A stretch of DNA of 36,679 nucleotides from an uncultured bacterium (lineage in GTDB: Bacteria; Planctomycetota; Phycisphaerae; Phycisphaerales; SM1A02). How positions within the stretch are numbered: position 1 is the first letter of the stretch; each line of letters opens with the position of its first letter. Where the stretch lies: positions 1-36,679 of the forward strand of contig CAJCCX010000193.1 of the NCBI GenBank assembly GCA_903961015.1, written 5' to 3'. A program made the translations under genes and the position numbers. Shown here piece after piece: positions 1-33,853 of this stretch. The notes under the pieces are model-generated. The model was not told where the DNA came from and made no database searches. It saw nothing but the letters and a program-made list of their open reading frames with translations.

Positions 1-1180
1 GAGTCATCTGTTCTGGTGAAGGGTCAGATCCATTTTGCAGAATACGTTTGTCACTCCAGAGTTCGTTTGTGAAGGTAATGACACCGAGTGATTCGGCAAG
101 CCAATTCACAAATCCGCCGTGAACCGTATAGAGATCTTGATAGATCACCATTGATCGATAAAAGGGCAGCATTTCCGCTCCGACATTCGCGATCGAGTCA
201 TATGTCGCACGATCAGCTCCGACATATTCACCCTCCAGATAATTTGCGCCAGGTCCGCGCAGAATCATTCCGCCCGCATTGTGATAACTCTGGCCTGCGG
301 CAATGTTGGGATGCTTCAAAATCCACTGTGAAATAGCCTTTGTTTCTGGGAAGCAAAATGGGAAGTCTCCAGCACCGCCTTGCACATGTTCTGGCTGCCA
401 GTCAGCTGCCCAATTTCGATTCATGTCATAACCACCTGGACCGTCTTCGTTGACTCGGCCATCACCATCATTGTCGATTCCTTCACTCCCAGCCATGGAC
501 CACTCTCCATACTCCATCGTTCCGTCAGGACGAAGTTCTGTCGATACGCGTTCGAGAATGCGCGGATCGCGTGCATTCCGGCGATGCGAACCCTTCGAAT
601 CTTTTCGCCACATCTGTCCGATGGAACCATCGCCGTCAAGATCATCTGGTCCATCTTCATCGCAGACCCCATCTCGATCATCATCGGTGGGTTGCATTCC
701 AGTTCGCGACGAGTGCGGACTATTTTGCTGGTTGAACCAGTTCGCGCGTCCATCTGGATTGACTGAAGGAAGAAAATAGAAAGCGCATCGATCGACGAGT
801 TCCGTTAATGCTGGAACTTTTCCGTACGCGCGGCAGAGATAGTCGACGGAATACATCACAGTTTCAGTCGCTTGGATTTCATTTCCATGAATGTTGCCAT
901 CAATCCACATCGCAGGCTTGGAAGTATCTGCGCCAGTCGCTGTATTATTGAGAATGATCACAATCAGCGGTCGATTCTGCGATGTTCTGCCGATTTCCTG
1001 AAGTGAGAGCAAATTTGGATAGGCAGTCACCAAATCATTCGCCATCTTGAGCACCTCTGGATAGTCATAGAAACGATTCCATGCAATCAGCACTTTCCCA
1101 GGCAATTGCTGTTGCGCTGATGCCGATGCGACTGGAATCATGATGAGGAGTAGTGTTGAAAACAATCTTTTAAAATTCAC
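1..1180 (-). CDS. Secreted M14 zinc carboxypeptidase (3' end outside window)
   Basis: Predicted secreted zinc exopeptidase of the M14 (carboxypeptidase A-like) family. 393 codons are visible and the C-terminus runs off the left edge. I translated it by hand from a GTG at 1180; its signal peptide (about residues 1-22, ending ASASA before QQQ) supports this start. The metal site is intact: HGNE at 98-101 gives zinc ligands H98 and E101, NPDGR at 141-145 and DMNRNW near 252-257 are family motifs, H300 in YHNAGG is the third ligand, and E373 in TNELW is the likely catalytic glutamate. Residues 165-250 contain several acidic Dx[DN]xDG stretches that may bind calcium. The GTG overlaps the TGA of the upstream gene (GTGA), and GGAGGT lies six bases before it, so the two genes are probably translationally coupled. 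The substrate is unknown. Confidence 0.9.
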   Translation of the reverse strand, partial: MNFKRLFSTLLLIMIPVASASAQQQLPGKVLIAWNRFYDYPEVLKMANDLVTAYPNLLSLQEIGRTSQNRPLIVIILNNTATGADTSKPAMWIDGNIHGNEIQATETVMYSVDYLCRAYGKVPALTELVDRCAFYFLPSVNPDGRANWFNQQNSPHSSRTGMQPTDDDRDGVCDEDGPDDLDGDGSIGQMWRKDSKGSHRRNARDPRILERVSTELRPDGTMEYGEWSMAGSEGIDNDGDGRVNEDGPGGYDMNRNWAADWQPEHVQGGAGDFPFCFPETKAISQWILKHPNIAAGQSYHNAGGMILRGPGANYLEGEYVGADRATYDSIANVGAEMLPFYRSMVIYQDLYTVHGGFVNWLAESLGVITFTNELWSDKRILQNGSDPSPEQMT

Positions 1181-2907
1181 GGGATGACCTCCGATGGCAG
1201 CGTGACCTTCTCGCCAACGATTGTGGCGCGATATGTTCCGCTTGGTTTCCAATTGGCTTCAAGAATGAGTTGCTCGGATGATGAGGACTCAACGAGCCAC
1301 CGAAACGATTTTCTTCCTCCAGCGCCAGTGAGTCCATCGATGATGGTCATTCGTTGGCCGGAGAGAATCCGATCTTTTGGACTCGAAATCCGAACAATAA
1401 TTGGGAAGGGTTTGTGATTGATTCGCCCCATTTCAGTGACGGTCGGCAACCAACCATCATTCGCAATCTCCGCTTCGATTTCATAGATGCCAGGTGCAGT
1501 CATTTTCGAAGTTAAATTACAAAGAGAAATCTTCGGTTGTCGCTTTGCCAGTTCGCTCAGAAAGGCAGCGACCGCATCTGCGATCTTGGGGATTTCACTC
1601 GGAGGCGGATTTGATCTAAAACCAGTGAGAAATCCACCAACTTCAACTGGACCAAGGGTTGGATGATTGAAGGTTGTCCAAGGAAGAAATCCTCGACCTG
1701 CTTGATCACGGTCGCTCCAAGCAAGCCATCCAGCAGCTTCTTCATCGGCAGGTTGATCTGGAGGCGCAGGTGTAACAACTGGTACCGCGGGAACAACTGG
1801 CACAGCAGGAACAACTGGCGCAGCAGGATCAACTGGCGCAGCGGGAACAGGTGTGGGATCTGGTCGACCCCACGCTTGAGTCGCAAATGTTGGAATCCCT
1901 CGATGAGCATAGAGCCACAGAGCGAATGAGCCTGATGGATCACACTCAGTCGAACGAGCTTGTCCAGAAAGTTCGCGCCACTTGCGTCCCATTTCTTCCC
2001 AAGTTGCAGCATCGCCAGAATCCAAAGCAATTGGAGTTTTCCCAGTGACATCGCGCGCTTTCGAATCCGGAGTCTTTACCAAATTATCCCAGCGCCCAAT
2101 CACAAGTGCTCCGATGATGCGCGGATGTTCAAGTACGAACTTCACAAGTGATTGCGATTCGGGCTCACTCAATTGAAACTGGCCAGCTGAGGGATTGAAT
2201 TCAGGCCAAAGATGTGGAAAGTTGCGGTCAATATCAACGCCACCTATGTCATCTTCAGCGATGAGCCCATCGCGATCTGAGTCCAAACCTTCGGTATAGA
2301 GCGTATAAATCGCTCGCTGATCTTTCGTTGTGTCTGGAGTTCGCAGCAGTCGAGGCTCGCCTGGATCTGCGAGATGAGTTGGCGGATCATTCGCAGGCGG
2401 GTTGAGCCTGCGCATCATTGTGATTGCGCCATCAGCGTTGATGTCTTGCGCAGGATCTTCATCGATGCGTCCATCGCGATCTTCGTCGACTGGTCTTGCA
2501 TTGCGATTTGCACGACCATCTGATTTCATGAACGTATCGAGAAACACATCAGGATTCGCGCACGGGATGACATAGAAAGTATTCTTCTTCAGAATCTCTG
2601 GCATTTCAAGAAGTTTCTTGATTGCTGCGACGGAGATTGCAACGGAACTTGGACGACTTCCATCGAGTCCGCTGACAAGAAGGATTGCGGGTTTCTTCTC
2701 TGCATCGACAACATTTTCACTGAGTGTGATCAACTCAATTGGTTGGCCAGTCCATGATTTTCCGATGGTCGCAATCGATGCTCGTGCTCGATTGTTTTGG
2801 ACAATCGTGTTCGCTTGTGCCATTGCATCTCGCACAGAAGTGGTCTCTGCAACCGGTGGGTCCGTGGCGAGTCTCAATGCAAGAAGTGTGATCGGGATCA
2901 AGAACAT
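1177..2907 (-). CDS. M14-like pseudopeptidase (active-site residues lost)
   Basis: A 576-residue exported protein with the M14 carboxypeptidase layout but no usable active site. Family landmarks align with the intact neighbour: NPD at 118-120, an acidic Dx[DN]xDG region at 141-161, VDIDRNF at 224-230, and a C-terminal part with HPTLGPVEVGGF near 415-426. By eye alignment, the HxxE zinc motif is replaced by LDGSR (D82, R85), the third-ligand region reads GRWDN (271-275) with no histidine, and the catalytic glutamate region TNELW reads TQAW (343-346). Residues 357-380 are a Pro-Ala-Val linker built from six-residue repeats. A hydrophobic stretch at 4-14 suggests a short signal sequence. The start is three bases after the DUF3299 stop, with GGAG nine bases upstream. 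A non-catalytic role, such as binding peptide or acting as partner of the adjacent active enzyme, is inferred. Confidence 0.85.
   Translation of the reverse strand: MFLIPITLLALRLATDPPVAETTSVRDAMAQANTIVQNNRARASIATIGKSWTGQPIELITLSENVVDAEKKPAILLVSGLDGSRPSSVAISVAAIKKLLEMPEILKKNTFYVIPCANPDVFLDTFMKSDGRANRNARPVDEDRDGRIDEDPAQDINADGAITMMRRLNPPANDPPTHLADPGEPRLLRTPDTTKDQRAIYTLYTEGLDSDRDGLIAEDDIGGVDIDRNFPHLWPEFNPSAGQFQLSEPESQSLVKFVLEHPRIIGALVIGRWDNLVKTPDSKARDVTGKTPIALDSGDAATWEEMGRKWRELSGQARSTECDPSGSFALWLYAHRGIPTFATQAWGRPDPTPVPAAPVDPAAPVVPAVPVVPAVPVVTPAPPDQPADEEAAGWLAWSDRDQAGRGFLPWTTFNHPTLGPVEVGGFLTGFRSNPPPSEIPKIADAVAAFLSELAKRQPKISLCNLTSKMTAPGIYEIEAEIANDGWLPTVTEMGRINHKPFPIIVRISSPKDRILSGQRMTIIDGLTGAGGRKSFRWLVESSSSEQLILEANWKPSGTYRATIVGEKVTLPSEVIP
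1187..1192 (-). promoter_or_regulatory. Shine-Dalgarno site for the M14 peptidase
   Basis: On the minus strand the sequence reads GGAGGT, six bases before the GTG start at 1180. It lies inside the last codons of the upstream gene. This is one of the few strong ribosome-binding sites in the window, and it decides the non-ATG start of the peptidase gene. Confidence 0.75.
1775..1846. repeat. Four tandem 18-bp repeats coding a Pro-Ala-Val linker
   Basis: Four head-to-tail copies, at 1775-1792, 1793-1810, 1811-1828 and 1829-1846, have the form ACAACTGGCGCAGCAGGA with a few changes each. On the minus strand they code the six-residue repeats PAAPV(D/V) and PAVPVV between the two halves of the pseudopeptidase. 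The period is a multiple of three, so copy number can change without a frameshift. Confidence 0.85.
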
Positions 2908-2910
2908 GTA

Positions 2911-3633
2911 TTACATCTCCGTTGAGAGGGTTGCGTTATCCATTGTGTACAAGCCAACCAACCATTTTTCGACAACATATGGATCGATATGAAAAACACC
3001 TTGAAGAGTGCCGACACGGACAATATGCCGTTTCGAGTTGTCGGCAGGCGTGACGAGTTTCACTTCGATTGCGTCATACGGCGAAGGCGGAACGCCGATG
3101 CAACAACCATCCCACTGATTCAGCATCACGAGGCATTCACTCGATTCTGTGACGATGAGTGGAAATGCGATGAATCCAGAGATTCGTACATACGCTCCAT
3201 TGAGCATTGCAATGCGCTGTGGAATTTCTTTTTCGCCCAAGCGGGGGATGTATGTGTCTGCGGCACTCATGAGTAATTCCCATGACACTTCATATGGACT
3301 TTCTTTTGTTCCTTTTCCCTGGATGACAAATTTCCCATCTGCTGAAATCGCTCCATCTTTTTCAACGAGTCTTCCTGGACGAACCTTTGCGTCTTTAATA
3401 GTTTGATCCAGCCCCTTGGTGAATGTTCCAAGAGTTGGTGATGCAGCAGATGGCTCGGCGACGAATGGTGTTTTCGGCGCGGCGGGTGAAGGAGTGATCG
3501 TTGGAATCGTATTTGCTCCGCTTGTTGCAATTCCAATCTCGACAGTCGGCGCGACTTCTGGGGCAGGAATCAAAAAGAGAGCAGCAAGTCCAGCGGCAAT
3601 AACAATCGAGATTGTGATCCAGAAGGTTCGCAC
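2911..3633 (-). CDS. DUF3299-domain membrane-anchored protein
   Basis: A 240-residue protein with one N-terminal membrane segment (about 4-24), a Pro/Ala/Thr-rich linker (25-70), and a C-terminal domain (about 115-238) that I recognise as DUF3299-like: GAYVRISGFIAFPL followed by CCIGVPPSP, with the cysteine pair at 177-178. The open frame extends upstream into the permease gene, but the GTG at 3633 puts the membrane helix at the N-terminus and starts 25 bases after the permease stop, so I chose it; no strong Shine-Dalgarno is present. DUF3299 proteins are known beside FtsX-type ABC transporters in zinc-regulated operons such as Zrg of Vibrio, and the same order is seen here. The biochemical role is unknown; a periplasmic metal-handling partner of the transporter is an inference. 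Confidence 0.7.
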   Translation of the reverse strand: MRTFWITISIVIAAGLAALFLIPAPEVAPTVEIGIATSGANTIPTITPSPAAPKTPFVAEPSAASPTLGTFTKGLDQTIKDAKVRPGRLVEKDGAISADGKFVIQGKGTKESPYEVSWELLMSAADTYIPRLGEKEIPQRIAMLNGAYVRISGFIAFPLIVTESSECLVMLNQWDGCCIGVPPSPYDAIEVKLVTPADNSKRHIVRVGTLQGVFHIDPYVVEKWLVGLYTMDNATLSTEM

Positions 3634-3658
3634 GGGTAGTTTCGCAGGAATTGAAAGG

Positions 3659-4984
3659 CTATGCGATTGGTCGCAAGTGTCGAGCAACAGGAGTTCGATA
3701 AGACTTAATTGCAGGAATGATTCCAGCCAGAGCAGCGAGCACAACGGCGCCCGCCATGACAAGCGCAGCGGAGCGAGGATCGATTGTTCCTGCGACTGTG
3801 ATGCCAATGCGTTGTGCAAGAATTGTGCTTGCAATTGCACTTCCACCTATGGCAAGAAATGCCCCCAGTATCGCGCCAATCAGGCCAATCAGCGTGCTTT
3901 CAGTGATGGCAAGTGCAAAGACTCGCCAAGCACTTGCACCTAGGACGCGCAAGACTGCAACTTGGCGGCGACGAAGTTCCATAGACGCAACCATCGCAAG
4001 CATGATGCTGATCGCACTCGAGACAAGCACCACAACCGCCATTGCAAGGAAGAGCCAGTCAATATCACCAACGATGGCCATCAATCGTCCGATCTGTTGT
4101 GCAGGTTGGGCAACAGTGATTGCCATGTCGCGGCGAAGTCGGTCGAATTGGGCTGCGATGGATGCAGATGCATCGCTGCCGGGTCGAGTTGGAAGTCGCA
4201 GAAGGATCCCAGTCATGAGTTTGTCGGCATCGGTCAAGTCTGCAGCTTCAACATGTTCATGTTCATGGGCATGATCGTGACCTGCATGATCTTCCTCTGC
4301 CTCCGCTTCATGTTCTGCACGCGCGGCATTCTCTCGACGATCTTCTGCATGAATGATCCAAGTACTTTGCAGATTGGTAAAAAGCGCTCGATCATGAGCA
4401 GATCCAGTCGGTTTCAGAATGCCAACAACCTCGTATGGATGGTCCGCATGTTGATGACCGCCTTCTCTGCTCCCACCAGTTCCGTGAGAAAAGACAATTT
4501 TCTGACCGACGCTCAATCCATGTTCACTCGCAGCTTGCGATCCAGCGACGACCTGAAAATCCTCGGCAAATGATTTCCCAGATGCATATTGGAATGGTTG
4601 ACCACTGACAGGTTCGAAGTTGCTTAAGAACTCTGGTGTTGTCGCCATCACCGGACTTCCGCGAAAAGAATCGCCAAGTTGAGTTGGTATAGCCCACTGC
4701 CACGGAAAACTATTCTTGATCTCTTCATACTTTCCCCATGCAATAGGATTTGCAGGAGCGTTGGCATAAAATAGTCCGTTGAGAACTCCAACGAGGGGGC
4801 TTGCGTCCGCACTTACGAGAAGATGAATGTTTCCAGTTCCGCGCCGAAATGCTTGCGATGCTGCTTCACGAAGCGACATCAGTACCAAGAGCAACGCCAC
4901 TGCAATGGCAACCATGGCGACGGTGACAGAACTTGCCAAGAGTCGTACACGAAGGCTTCGCAGCACGATGATCATGTCATTCAT
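3659..4984 (-). CDS. FtsX/MacB-type ABC transporter permease with His-rich loops
   Basis: A 441-residue inner-membrane permease with the FtsX/MacB layout: one helix at about 16-36, a large extracytoplasmic domain (about 40-305), then three helices at about 310-335, 355-390 and 405-428. The extracytoplasmic domain has two histidine-rich patches. The first is around 167-182 (H167, H177, H179, H182), just before HPYEVVGILKPTG. The second, at 225-244, has seven histidines among acidic residues. Such patches usually bind zinc or a similar metal. FtsX-type permeases generally act as mechanotransmission or lipoprotein-release machines rather than channels, so metal may be sensed or handed over rather than pumped. 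The ATG overlaps the stop of the ATPase gene by four bases (ATGA). The closest described parallel known to me is the permease of the Vibrio zinc-linked Zrg system. Confidence 0.85.
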   Translation of the reverse strand: MNDMIIVLRSLRVRLLASSVTVAMVAIAVALLLVLMSLREAASQAFRRGTGNIHLLVSADASPLVGVLNGLFYANAPANPIAWGKYEEIKNSFPWQWAIPTQLGDSFRGSPVMATTPEFLSNFEPVSGQPFQYASGKSFAEDFQVVAGSQAASEHGLSVGQKIVFSHGTGGSREGGHQHADHPYEVVGILKPTGSAHDRALFTNLQSTWIIHAEDRRENAARAEHEAEAEEDHAGHDHAHEHEHVEAADLTDADKLMTGILLRLPTRPGSDASASIAAQFDRLRRDMAITVAQPAQQIGRLMAIVGDIDWLFLAMAVVVLVSSAISIMLAMVASMELRRRQVAVLRVLGASAWRVFALAITESTLIGLIGAILGAFLAIGGSAIASTILAQRIGITVAGTIDPRSAALVMAGAVVLAALAGIIPAIKSYRTPVARHLRPIA

Positions 4985-5685
4985 CGGACTGCCTCCGTCG
5001 GCGCAAACTGCGAGACTTCGACAATTCTTGTGAATGCCTCGCGCAGTGAAGGATCGTGGCTTGTCACGATCAGTGCGGCTCCCGCAGCTCGCGCCGCTTC
5101 TTTTATCAACTCAATTGCGACGCGTGCGTTTGCAGGATCGAGGCTTGCAGTTGGTTCGTCTGCAAGCACAACGCAAGGTTCGCCTGCAACTGCACGCGCG
5201 ACGGCCACACGTTGCTGTTGACCAACAGAAAGCATTTCGATTGGAGAATGTGGATCTGCGATTGCAAGTTTGCTTAGTGCCGATTCTGCGCGCGAACGCT
5301 GCTGCGAAGAGGAGTATCCCGCCAACATCAACGCCATCATGACATTTTCAAGAGCTGTAAAACCTTGCAGCAAGTTAAAAGTCTGAAAGATCATTCCAAT
5401 GTTCTTGCCACGAAACGTATCCCGCTGTGCGCCGTGAAGGCCTAGAATATTGGTCCCGCGGATTCGGATTTCGCCGGCGGAAGCATCGTCGATTCCTGCA
5501 ATCAAGTGAAGCAATGTCGACTTCCCAGATCCAGACGAACCTGCGAGCAGGACATGTTCTCCAGATGCGACATGAAAGTATGGAATCGAAAGTTGGAAGC
5601 CTCTGCGATACGCAAAGTGCAACCCTGAAATATCAATTCCAAGAGTGTCGGAAGTTTGTGCGGAAGAAGCAACTTTCATCTTCAT
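4981..5685 (-). CDS. LolD/MacB-type ABC transporter ATPase
   Basis: A 234-residue ATP-binding subunit that powers the FtsX-type permease encoded next to it. Walker A is GSSGSGKST at 49-57, the Q-loop is at IFQTFN (99-104), the signature is LSVGQ at 152-156 (a Val in place of the usual Gly at position three), and Walker B is CVVLADE at 171-177, followed by the D-loop SLD. Length and motifs fit the LolD/MacB/FtsE group. The first ATG (5685) is used; a second ATG two codons later is also possible, and neither has a strong Shine-Dalgarno. It starts 16 bases after the recG stop, and its own stop overlaps the permease start (ATGA), so the two subunits should be made in step. Confidence 0.93.
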   Translation of the reverse strand: MKMKVASSAQTSDTLGIDISGLHFAYRRGFQLSIPYFHVASGEHVLLAGSSGSGKSTLLHLIAGIDDASAGEIRIRGTNILGLHGAQRDTFRGKNIGMIFQTFNLLQGFTALENVMMALMLAGYSSSQQRSRAESALSKLAIADPHSPIEMLSVGQQQRVAVARAVAGEPCVVLADEPTASLDPANARVAIELIKEAARAAGAALIVTSHDPSLREAFTRIVEVSQFAPTEAVR

Positions 5686-5701: not shown

Positions 5702-7825
5702 TCAACCAATGTCGCTCAAACCGAGCGCTGCGCCATAAAGTCCAAGAACTCGGCGTCGAAGTGCAAGGTCGCACGATTCGGTCAAGTCACCACTCGTGCC
5801 GATCCAAGCTTGCGCATCGCTTTTTGCATCTGTGAGCAGTGAAAAGTCTCGCGTCAAATCTGCAACTTGAAGCGGGGGAAGTCCAGATTGACGTGCGCCG
5901 AAGAATTCGCCTGGGCCGCGCAATTTTAAGTCCATTTCTGCAATTTCAAAGCCGTCGGTGCTGTTAGCGATCGTATCGAATCGACCTTGCGCGATGTCGC
6001 TGGGAGGGTCGCCTATCAGCACGCAATATCCGGGCTTACCTCCGCGGCCGACTCGACCTCGCAGCTGATGGAGTTGCGCAAGTCCAAATCGTTCTGCATG
6101 TTCGATGACCATGACAGTTGCGTTTGGAATATCAACACCAACTTCAATGATGATCGTCGCGACCAGCACGTCGATTTTCCCTGCACGAAATTCATCCATC
6201 ACTTGATCGCACTCCGCACTCTTCATCTGTCCGTGCAGTTGGCCAATTCGACAACCGTGCAATGGTCCTTCTGCCAGACTCTTCGCATGGGAAGCAACAT
6301 CCTTCAGTCCCATTTCGCTCTCTTGAATTGCAGGAACGACAACGAATGCTTGCTCGCCACGTTCGATACGTGTCTTGAGCCATGCGTACACCTCGAGCGC
6401 ACGAAGACTTGGCATGACACGAGTTGTCGGAGCAGTGCGCCCTGGCAAGAGTCCGCGCAGAGAACTGACTTCAAGGTCGCCGAAGAAGGAAAGCGCGAGC
6501 GTTCGTGGAATAGGAGTCGCAGTCATGACAAGAGTGTGTGGAACTTGTTGTGGAGTTGCTCCCTTTGACCGCAGCGCGGCGCGTTGTTCGACTCCAAAGC
6601 GATGTTGTTCGTCGATGATCGCGATTGCCAAACTCTTGAATCGAATATCTTCGCTAAGAAGCGCGTGCGTGCCGACGGCCATATCGAAATCGCCAGATGC
6701 AAGTCCATTGACCACAATCGCGCGATCGGCGGTGCGCAAACTGCCAGTCAGTCCAGCAATTCGAACTCGACTTCCTTTGAGCATCTCTTCCACAGTCCGC
6801 AGGTGCTGTTCTGCAAGAATTTCCGTTGGTGCAAGCAGAACTGCTTGATGCCCGTGCGCAATTGCATTCAACATTGCATGAACTGCGACGGCTGTTTTTC
6901 CTGATCCAACATCGCCTTGAAGTAGACGATTCATTGGAATCGTCTTGGCAAGATCATCAGAAATTTCTTTGCACACTTGGCGCTGTGCATCAGTCAGTAC
7001 AAACGGAATTCGCGCAAGAATTTTCTCCTCGATGGTGTTTGTCAGCACAAGTGCTGGTGCGCTCATCGAATATCGCACTTGCCATCGTCGCATCGCCATC
7101 GCAAGTTGCAGGCAGAGAAGTTCGTCATAAGCCAAGCGTGTTCTGCCACGTTCCGCTTCGAATGCATCTTTGGGGGCATGGACCATTCGATATGCATCGC
7201 GCAGAGAAACAAGGCCGCGCCGAGTGATAATCTCGGGTCGAATCAGATCGACAATCGAATTCAGCGCTGGTTGCAAGACTGAACCAAGAACTTTTTCGAT
7301 CCTTGCTGTCGCCAATTCTTCAGTCGCCGAATAGATCGGTCGCAATCGCCCAGCACGGACTGGCACTTGATCTTCTTCGTTCACTGGTTCCCAAAGTGGA
7401 TTGACCATCTCGAGATATCCGCCGCGTACTTTCGCCCGACCTTTCGCAATGCCCAACTGTCCAGGATGAATTCGCTTCATCAGCCACGGTGCGTTGAACC
7501 AAACAAGTCGAATCGTGCCACTCTCGTCGGCGAGAATCGCTTCGATTCTTGGTCGGCGAGATGGAACATGACGCACTTTTTGGATTTCGCCTCGAACGGT
7601 GCGTGTGACCGATGCTTCTGCAAGTTCTGTCGCCTCCTTCGCCTCTGTGACTGCAGCCTCCGCAACTTCGATTTCATACCGAATTGGAAGATGATTGAGC
7701 AAATCTCCAATAGTCCGCAATCCTAAATATGCGAAACGTGCGCCGATCTGCGGTCCGACTCCAGCGAGTTGGATGATGGGCGCATCGAGAGCAATCTTTG
7801 TGGTTGGGTCTACGTCTTGACTCAC
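5702..7825 (-). CDS. recG: ATP-dependent DNA helicase RecG
   Basis: A 707-residue superfamily 2 helicase that remodels stalled replication forks and recombination intermediates in the cytoplasm. The N-terminal wedge/OB-fold region occupies about 1-260. The helicase core has Walker A GDVGSGKT at 304-311, the RecG-type DEQHRFGV box beginning at D405, and the C-terminal motifs EVGVDIPNATVM and QLRGRVGRG. Length is normal for RecG. The start is a GTG at 7825, because an in-frame stop lies two codons upstream; no good Shine-Dalgarno is visible. Only 18 bases separate it from the divergent xseA start, so the promoters for the two repair genes must overlap each other's coding ends. It heads the run of transporter and peptidase genes. 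Confidence 0.97.
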   Translation of the reverse strand: MSQDVDPTTKIALDAPIIQLAGVGPQIGARFAYLGLRTIGDLLNHLPIRYEIEVAEAAVTEAKEATELAEASVTRTVRGEIQKVRHVPSRRPRIEAILADESGTIRLVWFNAPWLMKRIHPGQLGIAKGRAKVRGGYLEMVNPLWEPVNEEDQVPVRAGRLRPIYSATEELATARIEKVLGSVLQPALNSIVDLIRPEIITRRGLVSLRDAYRMVHAPKDAFEAERGRTRLAYDELLCLQLAMAMRRWQVRYSMSAPALVLTNTIEEKILARIPFVLTDAQRQVCKEISDDLAKTIPMNRLLQGDVGSGKTAVAVHAMLNAIAHGHQAVLLAPTEILAEQHLRTVEEMLKGSRVRIAGLTGSLRTADRAIVVNGLASGDFDMAVGTHALLSEDIRFKSLAIAIIDEQHRFGVEQRAALRSKGATPQQVPHTLVMTATPIPRTLALSFFGDLEVSSLRGLLPGRTAPTTRVMPSLRALEVYAWLKTRIERGEQAFVVVPAIQESEMGLKDVASHAKSLAEGPLHGCRIGQLHGQMKSAECDQVMDEFRAGKIDVLVATIIIEVGVDIPNATVMVIEHAERFGLAQLHQLRGRVGRGGKPGYCVLIGDPPSDIAQGRFDTIANSTDGFEIAEMDLKLRGPGEFFGARQSGLPPLQVADLTRDFSLLTDAKSDAQAWIGTSGDLTESCDLALRRRVLGLYGAALGLSDIG

Positions 7826-17208: not shown

Positions 17209-17656
17209 AATTATGACGACATCACTTCTGCTCGGATCACTTCAAGATGCGCCACCACTGGCTGGTGAAGCTGTCGCTCCTTCGACGACAGCGACAACCA
17301 CAGCAGCAGGAACCGTCCCAGCAGGCACAGGGCCAACTGCTGCTCGTCCCGCGCAAGATCCGTTTGGAATGATTTGGATGCTGATCCCATTCCTCGTCAT
17401 CATGGTCTTGGTTTCTGTCATGGGCTCACGCCGCGACAAGAAAAAGCGCAACGCACTTATGTCATCTATTAAGAAGCATGACGAAGTTCAAACAACCGGC
17501 GGAATCATCGGTTCCGTGGTGGAATTGAAGGATGACACAGTCGTTTTAAAAATCGATGAAAATTCAAATGTCCGAATGACATTCGCGAAGAGTGCCATCG
17601 TTCAAGTCATCTCATCTGGTTCGTCATCCGAAGTTGTTCAAGGCATCAAATCATGA
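17201..17656 (+). CDS. yajC: Preprotein translocase subunit YajC
   Basis: A 151-residue single-helix accessory subunit of the SecDF-YajC complex. The helix is FGMIWMLIPFLVIMVLVSVMG (about 66-86), followed by the family block RRDKKKRNALMSSIKKHDEVQTTGGIIG and the VVELKDDTVVLKI fold. The N-terminal 60 residues before the helix are a longer Ala/Thr/Pro-rich segment than in most YajC proteins. The ATG at 17201 has GGAG six bases upstream; a GTG at 17171 would be deep inside tgt. It overlaps the tgt end by eight bases, and its own stop overlaps the secDF start (ATGA). Confidence 0.93.
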   Translation: MNEIMTTSLLLGSLQDAPPLAGEAVAPSTTATTTAAGTVPAGTGPTAARPAQDPFGMIWMLIPFLVIMVLVSVMGSRRDKKKRNALMSSIKKHDEVQTTGGIIGSVVELKDDTVVLKIDENSNVRMTFAKSAIVQVISSGSSSEVVQGIKS

Positions 17657-20600
17657 ATATCAAAATCCTCCCACGATTGCTCCTCGCACTTTTTGTGATT
17701 GCCATTTGTGTTTGGCAAGTTTTCCCTCTGGATAAAAAAATCCGCCTCGGGAAGGATTTGCGTGGAGGAGTCAGCATGGTCTATTCCGTGGCGATGCCGC
17801 CAACGGGAGATTCCCAGCGCGTGCTTGCTCAAGTTGTTGAATCTCTCAAGCGGCGCGTCAATCCTCAGGGCGTACTCGATATCTCACTTCAACCGCAAGG
17901 AGCGGATCGCATCGATGTTGTGATGCCACTTCCATCCCCAGAAGTTCGTGATTTAGGTGACAATTACCGAACCAAGTTGACAGCACTCGGCGCTCAGATG
18001 ACGATCACGAGTCGCGAACTCGATCAAGCATTGGCAGCGGGAACAGCAGCGGATTTAGCACCCGCCCCTTCGAAAGGTGTTGTTGCAGGGGTGAGGCGTA
18101 ATCAGTTGACGGAACTGCAGGCAGCCTTCAATGATGCGACTTCCGCTCGGATCGCATATCAAGCGGCAATCGCCCAGAATGCTCCGGCGAGTGACATTGC
18201 AGCTATTGAAGACAAGATTGCCAAAGCCGAAGTCACTCAGCAGGCATTGATTGCGTCGATCGCTGCGACGAACATTGATGAAGCGAAGTTAAAAAGCAGC
18301 TTTGGGCTCTCGAATGTCCGTCCGTTTTCCAAGGACGAAAAGGGAAACACCAAGTTTGCAACTGATGGCACTCGTGAAACAGTGGCGAGCCCACGTGAAG
18401 TCGCAGTCAATCAATTGAAGATCCAATTGCCGGACTTTGCCATTGATATTGATGCACTTTCGCAAATGCAGATCGAGTACGCATCCAAGGTCACTGGCTA
18501 TGACGACCCAGAAGATCTCAAGCGACTCTTGCGCGGTGCAGGCGTTTTAGAATTTCATATCGCTGTTGGTGCGGCGACTCCAGAAGGCGTCAATCCAGAC
18601 GAGATGCGTAAGCAACTTGCAGAACGCGGACCCGCTGGAACCGATTCGCCCGTCGCTCGTTGGTTTCCGATCAATGACCCAAAGCAGTGGGGTGATAGCC
18701 AAGCTTCCATCGATTCTCTGATGGCAGATCCGGCTTCATACTTACGCAGCCGAGATATGGTCGGTGCAAAATATGACGGCGTTCCTTATGCGCTTCTGTA
18801 CGTGACTGATTCGATGAGCCTTGATCATCTCGGTGGTCGACAGTGGACAATGCAGAATGTTTTCCCCAGTCAAGATCAACTTGGTCGTGTTGCGGTTGCA
18901 TTCCAACTCGATCCCGCAGGTGGCACTTTGATGGGACGATTGACCGGTGCAAACATCGGTCGTCCGATGGGAATTGTGCTTGATGGACAGCTTTTCTCTG
19001 CTCCAAATCTTCAGAGCCAGATTTCCAATAATGGGCAAATCACTGGCTCATTTAGCAATGAAGAAATCGAATATCTCGTTCGCGTTCTGCAAGGCGGCGA
19101 ATTGGAAGCAAAATTGCAGCCAGAACCGCTGTCGGTCAGCATCCTCGGTCCAGCGCTTGGTCGTGACAATTTAGAGCGTGGATTGTGGGCGGTTTTTATC
19201 GCTGCCTGTGCAACTGCCGCCTTGATGGCGGTCTATTACCTCGGCGCTGGATTGGTTGCAGACTTCGCAATCATTTTGAATGTTGCAATGATCTTTGGAA
19301 TCATGGCAGGAGTCGATGGAGCATTCACCTTGCCAGGACTAGCAGGTATCGCACTCGTCATCGGTATGGCAGTCGATGCAAACGTGCTCATCTACGAACG
19401 AACGCGCGAAGAACTGATCGACAATAAAGAGCCACTCAAGACTGCAATCGATCTCGGATTTGCTCGCGCTTTCAACGCGATCATCGACGGCAACGTCACA
19501 AATCTGATTGTCTGCGTCGTGCTGTACAAGTTGGCTGCAACGGAAGTGAAGGGATTCGCCCTCACAATGATGATCGGCGTGATTACGACTCTTTTCACGG
19601 CGCTCTACTGCACAAAGTTGATCTATGCAATGTTGATCAACTGGTTTGGCATGAAGAGATTGCCGATGTTGCCAACCATTTTCCCATGGCTGATGAAGTT
19701 CCTTCGGCCAAGCATTGATTGGTTGAGCATTCGATATGCATGTTGGATTGGTTGCGGTGTGGTTTCGATCATCTGCCTTGCACTTTGTTGGTCTTCTGGC
19801 CGCGAGATGCTCGAAACCGAATTCCGCGGCGGTGTCACGATGACTCTGATGACCCGCAAAGCCGCAACTGGCGAACCCGCTTCTGCAAGTGGTCGTCTTC
19901 TGCTCAGCCGTGAAGCTGTCGAAGCGAAGGTTCGTCAGCTTGGCGACAACTCGACCGATCCAATTCTTCAGGAACTTCGCTCGGCGAATGTCTTGACAGT
20001 TGGAGACTCGACTCCTGATGGTCAATCCAGTGGATTCCAAGTCAAGGTCTCCAACCCCGCGCAATTGGCTTCCGACCAGACTGTTACGGAACCATTAGTT
20101 GCCGCAGTTGCAGGTGCGTTTGCAGATTCACTCGATGTGGTAAAGCCAGTTCAGTTTGCAGGATCCGATGACCCAGAAGGTGCGCTTTACACCCAAGCAA
20201 TCAGCTCCGACACACTTGGAGCATCGATCGGCAATCCTGCGATCAAAGATTCTTCCCGTGACTTTCTTGGAGGAGTGGTGGTTGTTCTAAAAGACCTTCA
20301 GCCTCCGGTGACTATCGAGGAAGCAGAAACTCGCATCGCCCGCATGCGAAAGCAGCCAGACTTTTCAGCGATCAGTTCTCGGCCCACCCAAGTTGTTGGA
20401 GTGCAGTTGGCAGACCCAGCGAATCCCGCGAAGGGTTGGTCCTCGGTCGCAGTCATGGTGACAGAGCCAGCAGCTCTCTTGAGCAAGGTCGATGCCGCAA
20501 CATGGGAACGCGTTGTCGCCAAACCAGAATGGCAGTTGATTCAAGCTGCATTTACGTCAAAATTGAGTTTGGATCAAGTCAACAGTTTCTCGCCAGTTGT

Positions 20601-21201
20601 CGCAGCCAACTTGGCAGCGACGGCAATTGTGGCGATCATCGTCAGTCTGATCGGAATGATTTTGTACATATGGATTCGGTTTGCCAGCTTCCGATACTCC
20701 ATGGCGACCATCGTCGCTGTCTCATTTAACGTCTTGGTTTGCCTTGGTGCGTTGGCTCTCAGCCTTCGCATCGACGGGACCAGTTTTGCCAAGATGTCTC
20801 TTATGGAAGAGTTTCGAATAGATCTCAATGTTATTGCTGCCCTTTTGACGATAATCGGATACTCATTGAACGACACAATCGTCATCCTCGATCGCATCCG
20901 AGAAAACAAGGGCAAAAATCTCTTTGCTTCTTGGGCACATATCAACAATGCGATCAATCAAACTTTCAGCCGAACGCTGATGACCGGTGGAACCACCCTC
21001 GTCAGCGCAGCGGTCTTGTATCTCTACGGAGGCCCGGCCATTCAGCCGTTCGCCTTCACTTTCATCGTTGGTCTGCTCGCTGGTACGGTCAGTTCTGTCG
21101 TGATTGCCGCCCCCATGACTTACATCAAGGGGCAAGATCATTCAGTCCTTGGTCTCGCCAAAGCAGGCTCCGGAGGGGTCGTTAACCCCACTCCGGCATA
21201 G
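17653..21201 (+). CDS. secDF: SecDF fusion protein of the Sec translocase
   Basis: A single 1182-residue chain joining SecD and SecF, the RND-type subunits that use the proton gradient to complete export through SecYEG. The SecD half has helix 1 (about 8-24), the LGKDLRGG motif at 32-39, and the membrane motif GMAVDANVLIYERTREE from about 571. The SecF half begins near 682 with its own first helix, an EFRGG motif, and GYSLNDTIVILDRIRENKG from about 1069; the key aspartates are retained in both. Residues 143-217 are an Ala-rich, probably coiled-coil insertion within the first periplasmic domain. A second periplasmic region in SecF (about 730-970) is also long. Fusions of this type are common in planctomycetes. 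A 49-base gap leads to the LysM gene. Confidence 0.97.
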   Translation: MNIKILPRLLLALFVIAICVWQVFPLDKKIRLGKDLRGGVSMVYSVAMPPTGDSQRVLAQVVESLKRRVNPQGVLDISLQPQGADRIDVVMPLPSPEVRDLGDNYRTKLTALGAQMTITSRELDQALAAGTAADLAPAPSKGVVAGVRRNQLTELQAAFNDATSARIAYQAAIAQNAPASDIAAIEDKIAKAEVTQQALIASIAATNIDEAKLKSSFGLSNVRPFSKDEKGNTKFATDGTRETVASPREVAVNQLKIQLPDFAIDIDALSQMQIEYASKVTGYDDPEDLKRLLRGAGVLEFHIAVGAATPEGVNPDEMRKQLAERGPAGTDSPVARWFPINDPKQWGDSQASIDSLMADPASYLRSRDMVGAKYDGVPYALLYVTDSMSLDHLGGRQWTMQNVFPSQDQLGRVAVAFQLDPAGGTLMGRLTGANIGRPMGIVLDGQLFSAPNLQSQISNNGQITGSFSNEEIEYLVRVLQGGELEAKLQPEPLSVSILGPALGRDNLERGLWAVFIAACATAALMAVYYLGAGLVADFAIILNVAMIFGIMAGVDGAFTLPGLAGIALVIGMAVDANVLIYERTREELIDNKEPLKTAIDLGFARAFNAIIDGNVTNLIVCVVLYKLAATEVKGFALTMMIGVITTLFTALYCTKLIYAMLINWFGMKRLPMLPTIFPWLMKFLRPSIDWLSIRYACWIGCGVVSIICLALCWSSGREMLETEFRGGVTMTLMTRKAATGEPASASGRLLLSREAVEAKVRQLGDNSTDPILQELRSANVLTVGDSTPDGQSSGFQVKVSNPAQLASDQTVTEPLVAAVAGAFADSLDVVKPVQFAGSDDPEGALYTQAISSDTLGASIGNPAIKDSSRDFLGGVVVVLKDLQPPVTIEEAETRIARMRKQPDFSAISSRPTQVVGVQLADPANPAKGWSSVAVMVTEPAALLSKVDAATWERVVAKPEWQLIQAAFTSKLSLDQVNSFSPVVAANLAATAIVAIIVSLIGMILYIWIRFASFRYSMATIVAVSFNVLVCLGALALSLRIDGTSFAKMSLMEEFRIDLNVIAALLTIIGYSLNDTIVILDRIRENKGKNLFASWAHINNAINQTFSRTLMTGGTTLVSAAVLYLYGGPAIQPFAFTFIVGLLAGTVSSVVIAAPMTYIKGQDHSVLGLAKAGSGGVVNPTPA

Positions 21202-32086: not shown

Positions 32087-33853
32087 ATGAAATCATTTAC
32101 TCACAACCGTCTGCTTCTCGTGCTTGCTCTCGTTGGATCAACAACAACCCTTGCGTTCTCCCAGCAGGCATCGCCTGAGTCGGCAGGTGGAGCAGTCATT
32201 CCAACCAAACCACCTGGAAGTCAATCGGATGGGATCCTGTCAACCCACAATCAGGTGGGTGCAAGCCCTCGTGATTTGATGTCATCTACCAAGCCTGTGA
32301 ATCAGGTTGGGGATCCAAGTCTTGGGAAGCAAGATGGTTCTCAAGCAGATGTTCCATCAGGTCCGCCTCCGATCGTCTTTGATCCACCAATTCTCGACCT
32401 TGGAGAAATGCAAGCAGATGTTCCCAAGACAGGGAAATTGATTATTCGAAATGTGACTGACAAGCCTGTCACGATTGCACGAGCAATTCCAGGTTGCGGT
32501 TGTACGACGGCGAATGCACCGAAGGATCCCATCCCAGCTGGTGGCTTTACCGAGATGGAAATCACGCTCAAGCCAGGGCCAAAGCAGGGCGTGAAGTTAT
32601 CCAAGCGCGTGACATTTCAAATCGAAGGTGCAGCACCAATCATTCTGACTGTCGAAGGAAACGTTGCTGCGTACGTAACGATTGCTCCCGACGTTATTGA
32701 AGGACCAGCGAAGGCGGATGCTCCTGGAAATCTCGATGGAAAGCTTGTAATTACTGCTGCTGACGGGCAGGAATTCAAAATTACTGGAGTCAATCCTCCC
32801 GTCATTTCTAACATCAGTCCAAATGCTGCCAAAGAGCACATTCTCAATATCGATTGGGCGAAATGGGAAGAACAAGGTCGTGCGATGAAAGTGACTATTG
32901 CAACAGATCATCCCAAGGCATCCTCTGTGAGTGTGATGATCAAGCGACCGATGGTTGCTGGTGATCGTCCAACTCCTCCGCCGCCAACCCAGCGTGCCGT
33001 TTCAACGCCAACAAGTGAACTTGTACTCGCAGCTCAACAGGGAAATGTTGCGAAGGTCAAGGAATTGCTTGCTGTTGCTGGAGTGAATGTGAATCAGGTC
33101 GATGCCGATACTGGCCGGACAGCCCTGCATTGGGCAGCCCGTGAAAACCGTGGAGAAATCGTTGCGATTCTTATCGAGGCGAAGGCCGATGTGAATGCGC
33201 AAGACCGAACAGGAAAAGGTCCATTGACTCTCGCGGCTGAAACTGGAAGCGTTGATGCAACTCAAAAACTTGTTGATGCTGGCGCAAGTTTGACAGCACG
33301 CGATTCAATCGGCGGAACTCCTCTCACGTGGGGTTGCGGATTAGGTTCTGCCGAGACTGTCAAGATATTGCTTGCAAAGGGAGCTGATGCGACTGTGGTC
33401 GATGTCAATGGATTGACTCCCCTTATCTGGGCAGCGGGTATCGGCAAGCCAGAAACAGTTGCTGTTCTATTGGAAAAATATCCAAATCTTGATTTGAATA
33501 TCAAAGATGGAGTGACCGGCGACTCTGCTCTGATGCGAGCTGTCCGAAGTGGCAAGATTGAAAGTGTTCGCATGCTTATTGAGAAGCATGCAGATGTGAA
33601 CTCAATCAATAAGCAGGGATATACGCCACTTCAACTCGCAGCTCTTTCGGGGACCCCCGAGAAAGTTCAATTGTTGATTGAAGCAAAAGCTGACTTGAAT
33701 TCGAAGGATGCGACCGGGCGAACTGCGCTTGATCTTGCGCAACGACGAACGGATGCCTCAGGAAAGGAAATCGCTGATTTGCTCCAAAGCAAAGGCGCAG
33801 TGAGCGCTGTTCCACTTCCTGCAACAACTCCCGCAGTTCCTGCGGCGAAGTAA
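32087..33853 (+). CDS. Secreted DUF1573-ankyrin repeat fusion protein
   Basis: A 588-residue exported protein with a signal peptide at about 1-26. After a low-complexity linker, residues about 95-200 form a DUF1573 domain: IVFDPPILDLGEM, then KLIIRNVTDKPVTI and the hallmark GCGCTTA (C137, C139). Residues 200-290 form a second immunoglobulin-like region. After a proline linker (294-308), about seven ankyrin repeats fill 310-575, with patterns such as GRTALHWAARENRGEIV and GYTPLQLAALSGTPEKV. The C-terminus is Pro/Ala-rich. DUF1573 proteins are common and often multi-copy in planctomycetes; ankyrin repeats bind proteins. An extracytoplasmic protein-binding role is inferred. AAAGGA lies 12 bases before the ATG. 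It is a single gene with its own terminator. Confidence 0.88.
   Translation: MKSFTHNRLLLVLALVGSTTTLAFSQQASPESAGGAVIPTKPPGSQSDGILSTHNQVGASPRDLMSSTKPVNQVGDPSLGKQDGSQADVPSGPPPIVFDPPILDLGEMQADVPKTGKLIIRNVTDKPVTIARAIPGCGCTTANAPKDPIPAGGFTEMEITLKPGPKQGVKLSKRVTFQIEGAAPIILTVEGNVAAYVTIAPDVIEGPAKADAPGNLDGKLVITAADGQEFKITGVNPPVISNISPNAAKEHILNIDWAKWEEQGRAMKVTIATDHPKASSVSVMIKRPMVAGDRPTPPPPTQRAVSTPTSELVLAAQQGNVAKVKELLAVAGVNVNQVDADTGRTALHWAARENRGEIVAILIEAKADVNAQDRTGKGPLTLAAETGSVDATQKLVDAGASLTARDSIGGTPLTWGCGLGSAETVKILLAKGADATVVDVNGLTPLIWAAGIGKPETVAVLLEKYPNLDLNIKDGVTGDSALMRAVRSGKIESVRMLIEKHADVNSINKQGYTPLQLAALSGTPEKVQLLIEAKADLNSKDATGRTALDLAQRRTDASGKEIADLLQSKGAVSAVPLPATTPAVPAAK

Follow-up and report, generated by a model that had tools for sequence, protein, structure and literature searches.

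A putative two-subunit M14 peptidase with a zinc-less homologue, and its linkage to a ZrgBCE-like transporter in one planctomycete lineage

The stretch of DNA considered here, called the window, is a whole contig of 36,679 nucleotides (C193; CAJCCX010000193.1 of assembly GCA_903961015.1) from an uncultured bacterium of the order Phycisphaerales (lineage SM1A02), whose source assembly is a draft genome of 2.88 Mb with an estimated completeness of 93.5%. Positions 1-5685 are filled by five genes on the minus strand that encode, in this order, an ABC ATPase, a permease, a DUF3299 protein and two proteins of the M14 carboxypeptidase family, here named M14-A and M14-B. An earlier note, made from the letters of the window, had proposed that the first three genes form a zinc-linked transporter that hands zinc to a secreted pair of zinc peptidases or energises its assembly. 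Profile matches and coordinates confirm that the five genes are present in the proposed order, separated by 3-25 bases or overlapping. The reading of the locus changes in two other respects, in that only one of the two M14 genes encodes a protein with a zinc site, and that the link between the pair and the transporter is seen in one lineage only.

The ABC ATPase (4981..5685, minus strand, as are all features listed here; Pfam ABC_tran, 2.6e-31) is ZrgC-like and resembles the nucleotide-binding domain of MacB. Its best matches among the NCBIfam models listed are LolD, DevA and FtsE, every one below its own cut-off. The ATPase gene overlaps by 4 bases the gene for an FtsX/MacB-type, ZrgB-like permease (3659..4984; FtsX 3.9e-17, MacB_PCD 2.3e-12), which is followed after 25 bases by the gene for the ZrgE-like DUF3299 protein (about 2911..3633; PF11736, borderline score), if the latter begins at the GTG start suggested by its orthologues. 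Another 3 bases separate it from M14-A (1177..2907; Pfam M14, 5.7e-15), a predicted carboxypeptidase-fold pseudopeptidase. The end of M14-A in turn overlaps by 4 bases the start of M14-B (Pfam M14, 5.1e-46), probably a GTG at 1180, which encodes a predicted secreted M14 peptidase with an intact active site. Because the window is the whole contig, M14-B is cut by the contig edge, with one part at 1..1180 and the rest at positions 3-716 of contig C262. The same 46 residues of M14-B are encoded by the window's first bases and by the first frame of contig C262, which probably abuts the window start.

The next gene after M14-B on contig C262, overlapping the end of M14-B by 4 bases, encodes an HI0933-type flavoprotein that NCBIfam assigns to the aminoacetone-oxidase-family FAD (flavin adenine dinucleotide) enzymes. 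This protein may be an rRNA dihydrouridine synthase, a role for which our literature search gave nothing. On the opposite flank lies the housekeeping gene recG (5702..7825, minus strand; RecG by Pfam and by an NCBIfam equivalog over cut-off), which ends 16 bases before the ATPase gene, and the transporter is therefore not first in the tight run. Thus, the five-gene operon described in the earlier note holds for its own genes but appears to be part of a longer run of at least seven, from recG to the flavoprotein gene, two of which would by family encode ordinary, non-secreted proteins.

The two M14 proteins differ at the active site. In carboxypeptidase numbering, H69, E72 and H196 are the zinc ligands and E270 is the base, and R127, N144 and R145 were scored as well. 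M14-B keeps the full catalytic set (HxxE, R127, N144-R145, H196 and E270), and M14-A carries D82, R85, G271 and Q344 at the positions of the zinc ligands and general base. Among the window and its relatives, the ligand set occurs in none of the 32 M14-A rows and the catalytic set in all 32 M14-B rows, the window's included. Across 20 loci drawn from the whole phylum, the ligand set is again absent from every M14-A row (0/20), and the 18 full M14-B rows are intact save for one change at R127, with a single partial row agreeing where it is covered. At 80 loci from named genomes, no M14-A row has H69 and E72 together and none has a histidine at position 196 (one row is gapped at positions 69 and 72), and the whole catalytic set is found in 70 of 70 full M14-B rows, with which four partial rows agree. 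These three overlapping sets contribute 132 M14-A rows, or 112 distinct sequences as judged by the last 150 residues. The zinc site is retained in none of the 112, and all three ligands are gone in nearly every row. Ligand loss seen across so many sequences indicates that M14-A is not one broken gene, and it overturns the assumption that both M14 proteins are zinc enzymes, since only M14-B has the site.

Structure prediction suggests that M14-A has retained the M14 fold while losing the zinc chemistry. Its AlphaFold model (predicted local distance difference test, pLDDT, 88.7) aligns with carboxypeptidase T at a VIA-align Z of 28.6 and a root-mean-square deviation of 3.0 over 285 residues. The M14-B protein of a relative matches solved carboxypeptidases in sequence, with a best value of 1.7e-15 (gp180). 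Alignments of M14-A (alignments A1-A5 are chosen subsets of rows) reveal two Asp-rich inserts that appear to be of the calcium type. The first, a DxDxDG..DED / NGDG-type insert (2428..2487, minus strand), has D143, D145, E150, D151 and D155 invariant, and D141, D159 and G160 nearly so, over 43 M14-A rows. The second, of DxDxDG....ED type (2251..2283, minus strand), has D209, D211, D213, E218 and D219 invariant over 43 M14-A rows. Parts of the C-terminal region of M14-A are conserved too. Judged by eye, Sec-type signal sequences are clear at the listed starts of M14-B and weaker in M14-A.

At the former ligand sites, DG.H and GRHD-type patterns (residues 82-85 and 271-274; alignment A1) appear in many of the order's more distant M14-A proteins and hint at a re-used pocket there. 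R and W take their place in the genus of the window.

The two genes form a recurrent unit. M14-B lies directly downstream of M14-A on the same strand in 74 of the 80 named-genome loci; of the other six, five stop at a contig edge and one, weighed below, is a true exception. When the M14-B start is projected from a profile, its distance from the M14-A stop ranges over all 74 pairs from -22 to 274 bases, with a median of 21.5. This projection replaced an earlier gap measure that covered 70 of the 74 junctions and gave a median of -1, with 28 overlaps of 4 bases; that measure picked the start nearest the M14-A stop and was biased short. At one locus (L052:9504-13211, genome G033), M14-A and M14-B occur as one open frame of 1235 amino acids, a natural fusion. 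By depositor labels, which can be wrong for metagenome-assembled genomes, the pair occurs in Planctomycetota, KSB1, Verrucomicrobia, Calditrichota, Bacteroidota, Chlorobi, Balneolaceae, Aminicenantes and Sumerlaeota.

A quick tree of 41 of the 74 named pairs separates M14-A from M14-B by one branch with a support of 100, and the two subtrees are broadly alike; the identity matrices of the two proteins correlate with r = 0.92. M14-A is less conserved than M14-B in 820 of 820 pairwise comparisons, as might be seen if M14-A were a functionless duplicate of M14-B in decay. This explanation is so improbable that we give it hardly any weight, given the single A/B split across the depositor-labelled phyla, the long open frames, the invariant Asp-rich inserts, and the steady pairing with M14-B.

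A working principle for such a pair is known from another peptidase family. M16B heteromers consist of two homologous subunits, one with a zinc motif and one without, and the bacterial pairs come from a two-gene operon, according to the available text of PMC11266112 and PMC8960859. Mitochondrial MPP, Sph2681/Sph2682 and Bcn-gP1/Bcn-gP2, as described there, share with the present pair the paired genes and the combination of an active protein with a zinc-less homologue. However, the HXXEH motif and M16 fold of these systems are absent here, where both proteins are M14, and the likeness would be one of working principle only. In the accessible part of a 2024 review of pseudopeptidases (PMC11266112), the M14 members named are eukaryotic only; AEBP1/ACLP, CPXM1, CPXM2, CPD domain III and Ecm14 have in common with M14-A an M14 fold with lost catalytic residues, but coupling to an active partner gene is not described for them in that text. 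In CPD, domain III shares a single chain with other peptidase units, a situation that the fused protein of L052 resembles. Carboxypeptidase T, a bacterial secreted M14 enzyme, has the fold of M14-A; what differs here are the apparently calcium-type Asp-rich inserts, the extra C-terminal region, and a dead homologue as partner.

By analogy with the zinc-less subunit of M16B peptidases, M14-A would most likely be the inactive partner, controlling how substrates gain access, contributing to binding, or holding, stabilising or anchoring M14-B, and M14-B would do the cutting. Most likely, the two proteins would be produced jointly, exported by Sec and assembled with each other in the periplasm. Nothing pointed to the cell wall as the substrate of M14-B, and no such role is proposed. 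Searches of the open-access literature listed no paper that plainly deals with an M14 pair of peptidase and pseudopeptidase in bacteria, subscription papers being outside their scope. Peptidase/pseudopeptidase pairs are known in M16B, and an M14 pair this consistent across the labelled phyla would be a new bacterial case in which a dead paralogue regulates an enzyme. The idea can be tested with two purified proteins.

The remaining three genes resemble a ZrgBCE-like, MacB-type set. They share with ZrgABCDE of Vibrio and with PA4063-PA4066 of Pseudomonas aeruginosa a separate ABC ATPase, a MacB-like permease with a large outer domain and, by a borderline match, a DUF3299 protein. They differ from those systems in having no clear ZrgA, no Fur/Zur regulator found in this genome, a DUF3299 protein at the Pfam threshold, and other neighbours. 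A close relative of the permease (E <= 1.4e-82) was found in 39 of 61 genomes, among the matches listed. The His-rich stretch that the earlier note reported in the permease is present (about 4253..4312, minus strand), but it is variable and missing from several orthologues, as seen in alignment A2 and in His counts. Another segment, the SHGTGGSREGGHQH region (SHG...GHxH; 4448..4489, minus strand), has H179 invariant and H167 and H177 nearly so over the 18 rows of alignment A2, and may be a metal or partner site.

The DUF3299 protein scores 21.2 bits against PF11736, for which the cut-off is 22, and 22.9 bits in the whole-genome search; the family is over cut-off in 19 of the 61 genomes. Its WDGCC motif is invariant and PP.P is conserved (alignments A3 and A5), and its AlphaFold model, of moderate confidence (pLDDT 75.8), predicts an N-terminal membrane helix. 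A profile search gave no relative in the PDB, and a Foldseek search with the model gave weak OB-like matches, none at E <= 0.001, with PA4066 not recognised among the best 50 rows. Because the structure search gave no support, kinship with ZrgE rests on the borderline Pfam score together with gene context. The proposed resemblance to ZrgC, ZrgB and ZrgE can therefore be kept in outline, with the third member borderline and with neither ZrgA nor Fur/Zur found.

Delivery of zinc by this transporter to the secreted peptidases would be in keeping with the ZrgB/C/E-like genes, the His-rich stretch, an M14-B protein expected to need zinc, and a Vibrio zrg operon that is described, in the texts available, as zinc-responsive through Zur. 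Nonetheless, we regard it as very improbable. M14-A has no zinc site, the His stretch of the permease is not conserved, and the transporter and the pair occur separately in other genomes. Vibrio cholerae needs the ZrgA binding protein, as far as the available sources describe the system, yet ZrgA (PF10986) is over cut-off in none of the 61 genomes; 14 have sub-threshold matches and the window's own genome has none. The Fur/Zur family gave no match in the window's genome (93.5% complete) in a search that was positive in 13 of 14 control genomes, so that a search for Zur boxes had no basis. The window's genome also carries a separate znuABC-like operon. Furthermore, the case has recently been made that the related PA4063-PA4066 system of P. 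aeruginosa exports cobalt-pyochelin as a MacB-type transporter, with a DUF3299 protein that has no evident zinc binding, according to the accessible part of PMC11481552.

How far the pair and the transporter are linked was assessed in a relatives set of 61 genomes, 19 from the genus and 42 from outside it, and in a phylum sample; all counts of adjacency given here hold among the matches listed. In the genus, the permease, DUF3299 and M14-A genes are contiguous in 16 of 19 genomes, and in a 17th (G004) DUF3299 adjoins M14-A, the permease gene being on a different contig. Two genus members (G010 and G014) and one other family member (G028) could not be scored, owing to contig ends or a missing pair. 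Seven members of other genera of the family in the relatives set have both modules, of which G019, G024, G033, G034 and G035 are linked, G020 is not, and G028 is the unscorable genome just named. Two genomes of the same family in the phylum sample (G278 and G309) are linked as well, and thus linkage holds in seven other genera, where M14-A is 36-45% identical to that of the window.

Beyond the family the picture changes. Nine further genomes of the order have both modules, and adjacency is found in none of them (in seven the modules lie on separate contigs; in the other two they share a contig, at distances of about 97 and 766 kb). In the phylum outside the order, 20 genomes have both modules; G124 and G175, with no listed pair position, were left out, and adjacency is found in none of the 18 that can be checked (in 16 the modules lie on separate draft contigs, and in two they share a contig at a distance of more than 250 kb). 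Outside the genus, the 42 relatives divide into 16 with both modules, 10 with the pair only, four with the permease only and 12 with neither. In the named genomes, DUF3299 adjoins the pair at 22 of 80 loci, with the permease also seen at 21 and past the contig end at L136. The conserved adjacency in planctomycetes that the earlier note proposed to look for therefore stands for the genus and seven further genera and is not seen in the rest of the order and phylum. The transporter link is found in one planctomycete lineage only, and elsewhere each module stands alone.

Where the pair is unlinked, no gene family recurs as a neighbour in more than four of 58 named loci (of differing lengths), and none is common beyond close relatives in 12 order-level loci. 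A weak FtsX-like or ABC ATPase match lies near nine of 88 loci, several of them from the same genome or genus, and no enrichment is claimed. In G030, a family member, the genes after the pair, in the same orientation, encode an 814-amino-acid protein and an HlyD-type adaptor, then an ABC ATPase with a MacB-type permease, and lastly an efflux protein of the outer membrane (L061:1-10909), a MacAB-TolC-like set. In G020, a gene for a pappalysin-like M43 peptidase stands directly upstream of the unlinked pair (L055:11930-13519).

Two explanations of the linkage itself have to be weighed. According to one, MacB-type motion of the ATPase and permease would, via a periplasmic domain and the DUF3299 protein, switch on or position M14-A and M14-B, making the five parts a single machine. 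FtsEX acts on its cell-wall hydrolases in a comparable ATP-driven way. The contiguity in the genus and in seven further genera at 36-45% identity would suit such a machine, as would the MacA/MacB/TolC-like set beside the pair in G030, although the latter is one case among 88 unlinked loci. We consider it unlikely, because adjacency ends at the family, with most modules beyond it on separate contigs, and because 10 of the 42 relatives outside the genus have only the pair and four only the transporter. In addition, the pair is equally tight to the flavoprotein gene, which has no evident link to secretion.

According to the other explanation, two unrelated modules fell into a compact housekeeping run and were kept there by vertical descent, and history would account for everything; the chances of this we put as evenly balanced. 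All nine linked loci that the tree includes group in a single planctomycete clade, in the M14-A subtree (support 93) as in the M14-B subtree (support 95), and G023 (L058) has the recG-ATPase-permease-DUF3299-flavoprotein run without the M14 pair. Furthermore, the run includes two unrelated genes whose products are probably cytosolic. Pointing the other way, recG is directly upstream in most linked loci, but seven loci whose sequence extends about 5 kb or more upstream showed no recG there, and in these the transporter and pair remain linked. At L051 the flavoprotein gene is missing too and both flanks differ, and the five genes are still together, as the machine would also lead one to expect.

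On balance, the locus is best read as two separable modules linked in one lineage, to which we assign a probability of roughly two in three. Each of the two modules also exists separately in other genomes. The first would be a ZrgBCE-like transporter composed of an ATPase, a MacB-type mechanotransmission permease and a membrane-anchored DUF3299 partner, and the second an M14 peptidase/pseudopeptidase unit working like the M16B heterodimers. In one planctomycete lineage, the pair would have joined the transporter module inside the housekeeping run that extends from recG to the HI0933-type flavoprotein gene. The linkage is real and is kept over much divergence, and it shows no more than that; a function shared by all five genes remains a hypothesis. 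A bolder version, in which a widespread two-subunit M14 peptidase with an obligate zinc-less twin has in one lineage come under a MacB-type ABC transporter that gates or positions it from the cytoplasm, seems doubtful.

Several observations weigh against reading the locus as separable modules with a constant pair. At L159:8869-10776, M14-A has no adjoining M14-B although the sequence continues. The two modules co-occur in 34 of the 61 relatives against 28 expected (p 0.0009), outside the genus at p 0.03, and in the phylum sample in 28 genomes against 21 expected (p 0.05), all values being uncorrected for kinship; for the phylum table, a limit of E <= 1e-30 was set by hand on the pair matches, so that 79 remained of the 98 genomes in the 1e-10 listing. 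Without the genus, co-occurrence is weak. Lastly, the persistence of the five-gene block in the seven loci without recG upstream and in L051 suggests some benefit of the linkage.

A few features stand apart from these questions. The gene after M14-A at L159 is a convergent threonyl-tRNA-synthetase-type frame. Within the window, positions 32087-33853 encode a DUF1573 domain and ankyrin repeats in one protein, with an N-terminus that looks signal-like by eye, and positions 17653-21201 hold one frame of 1182 amino acids with both SecD and SecF domains.

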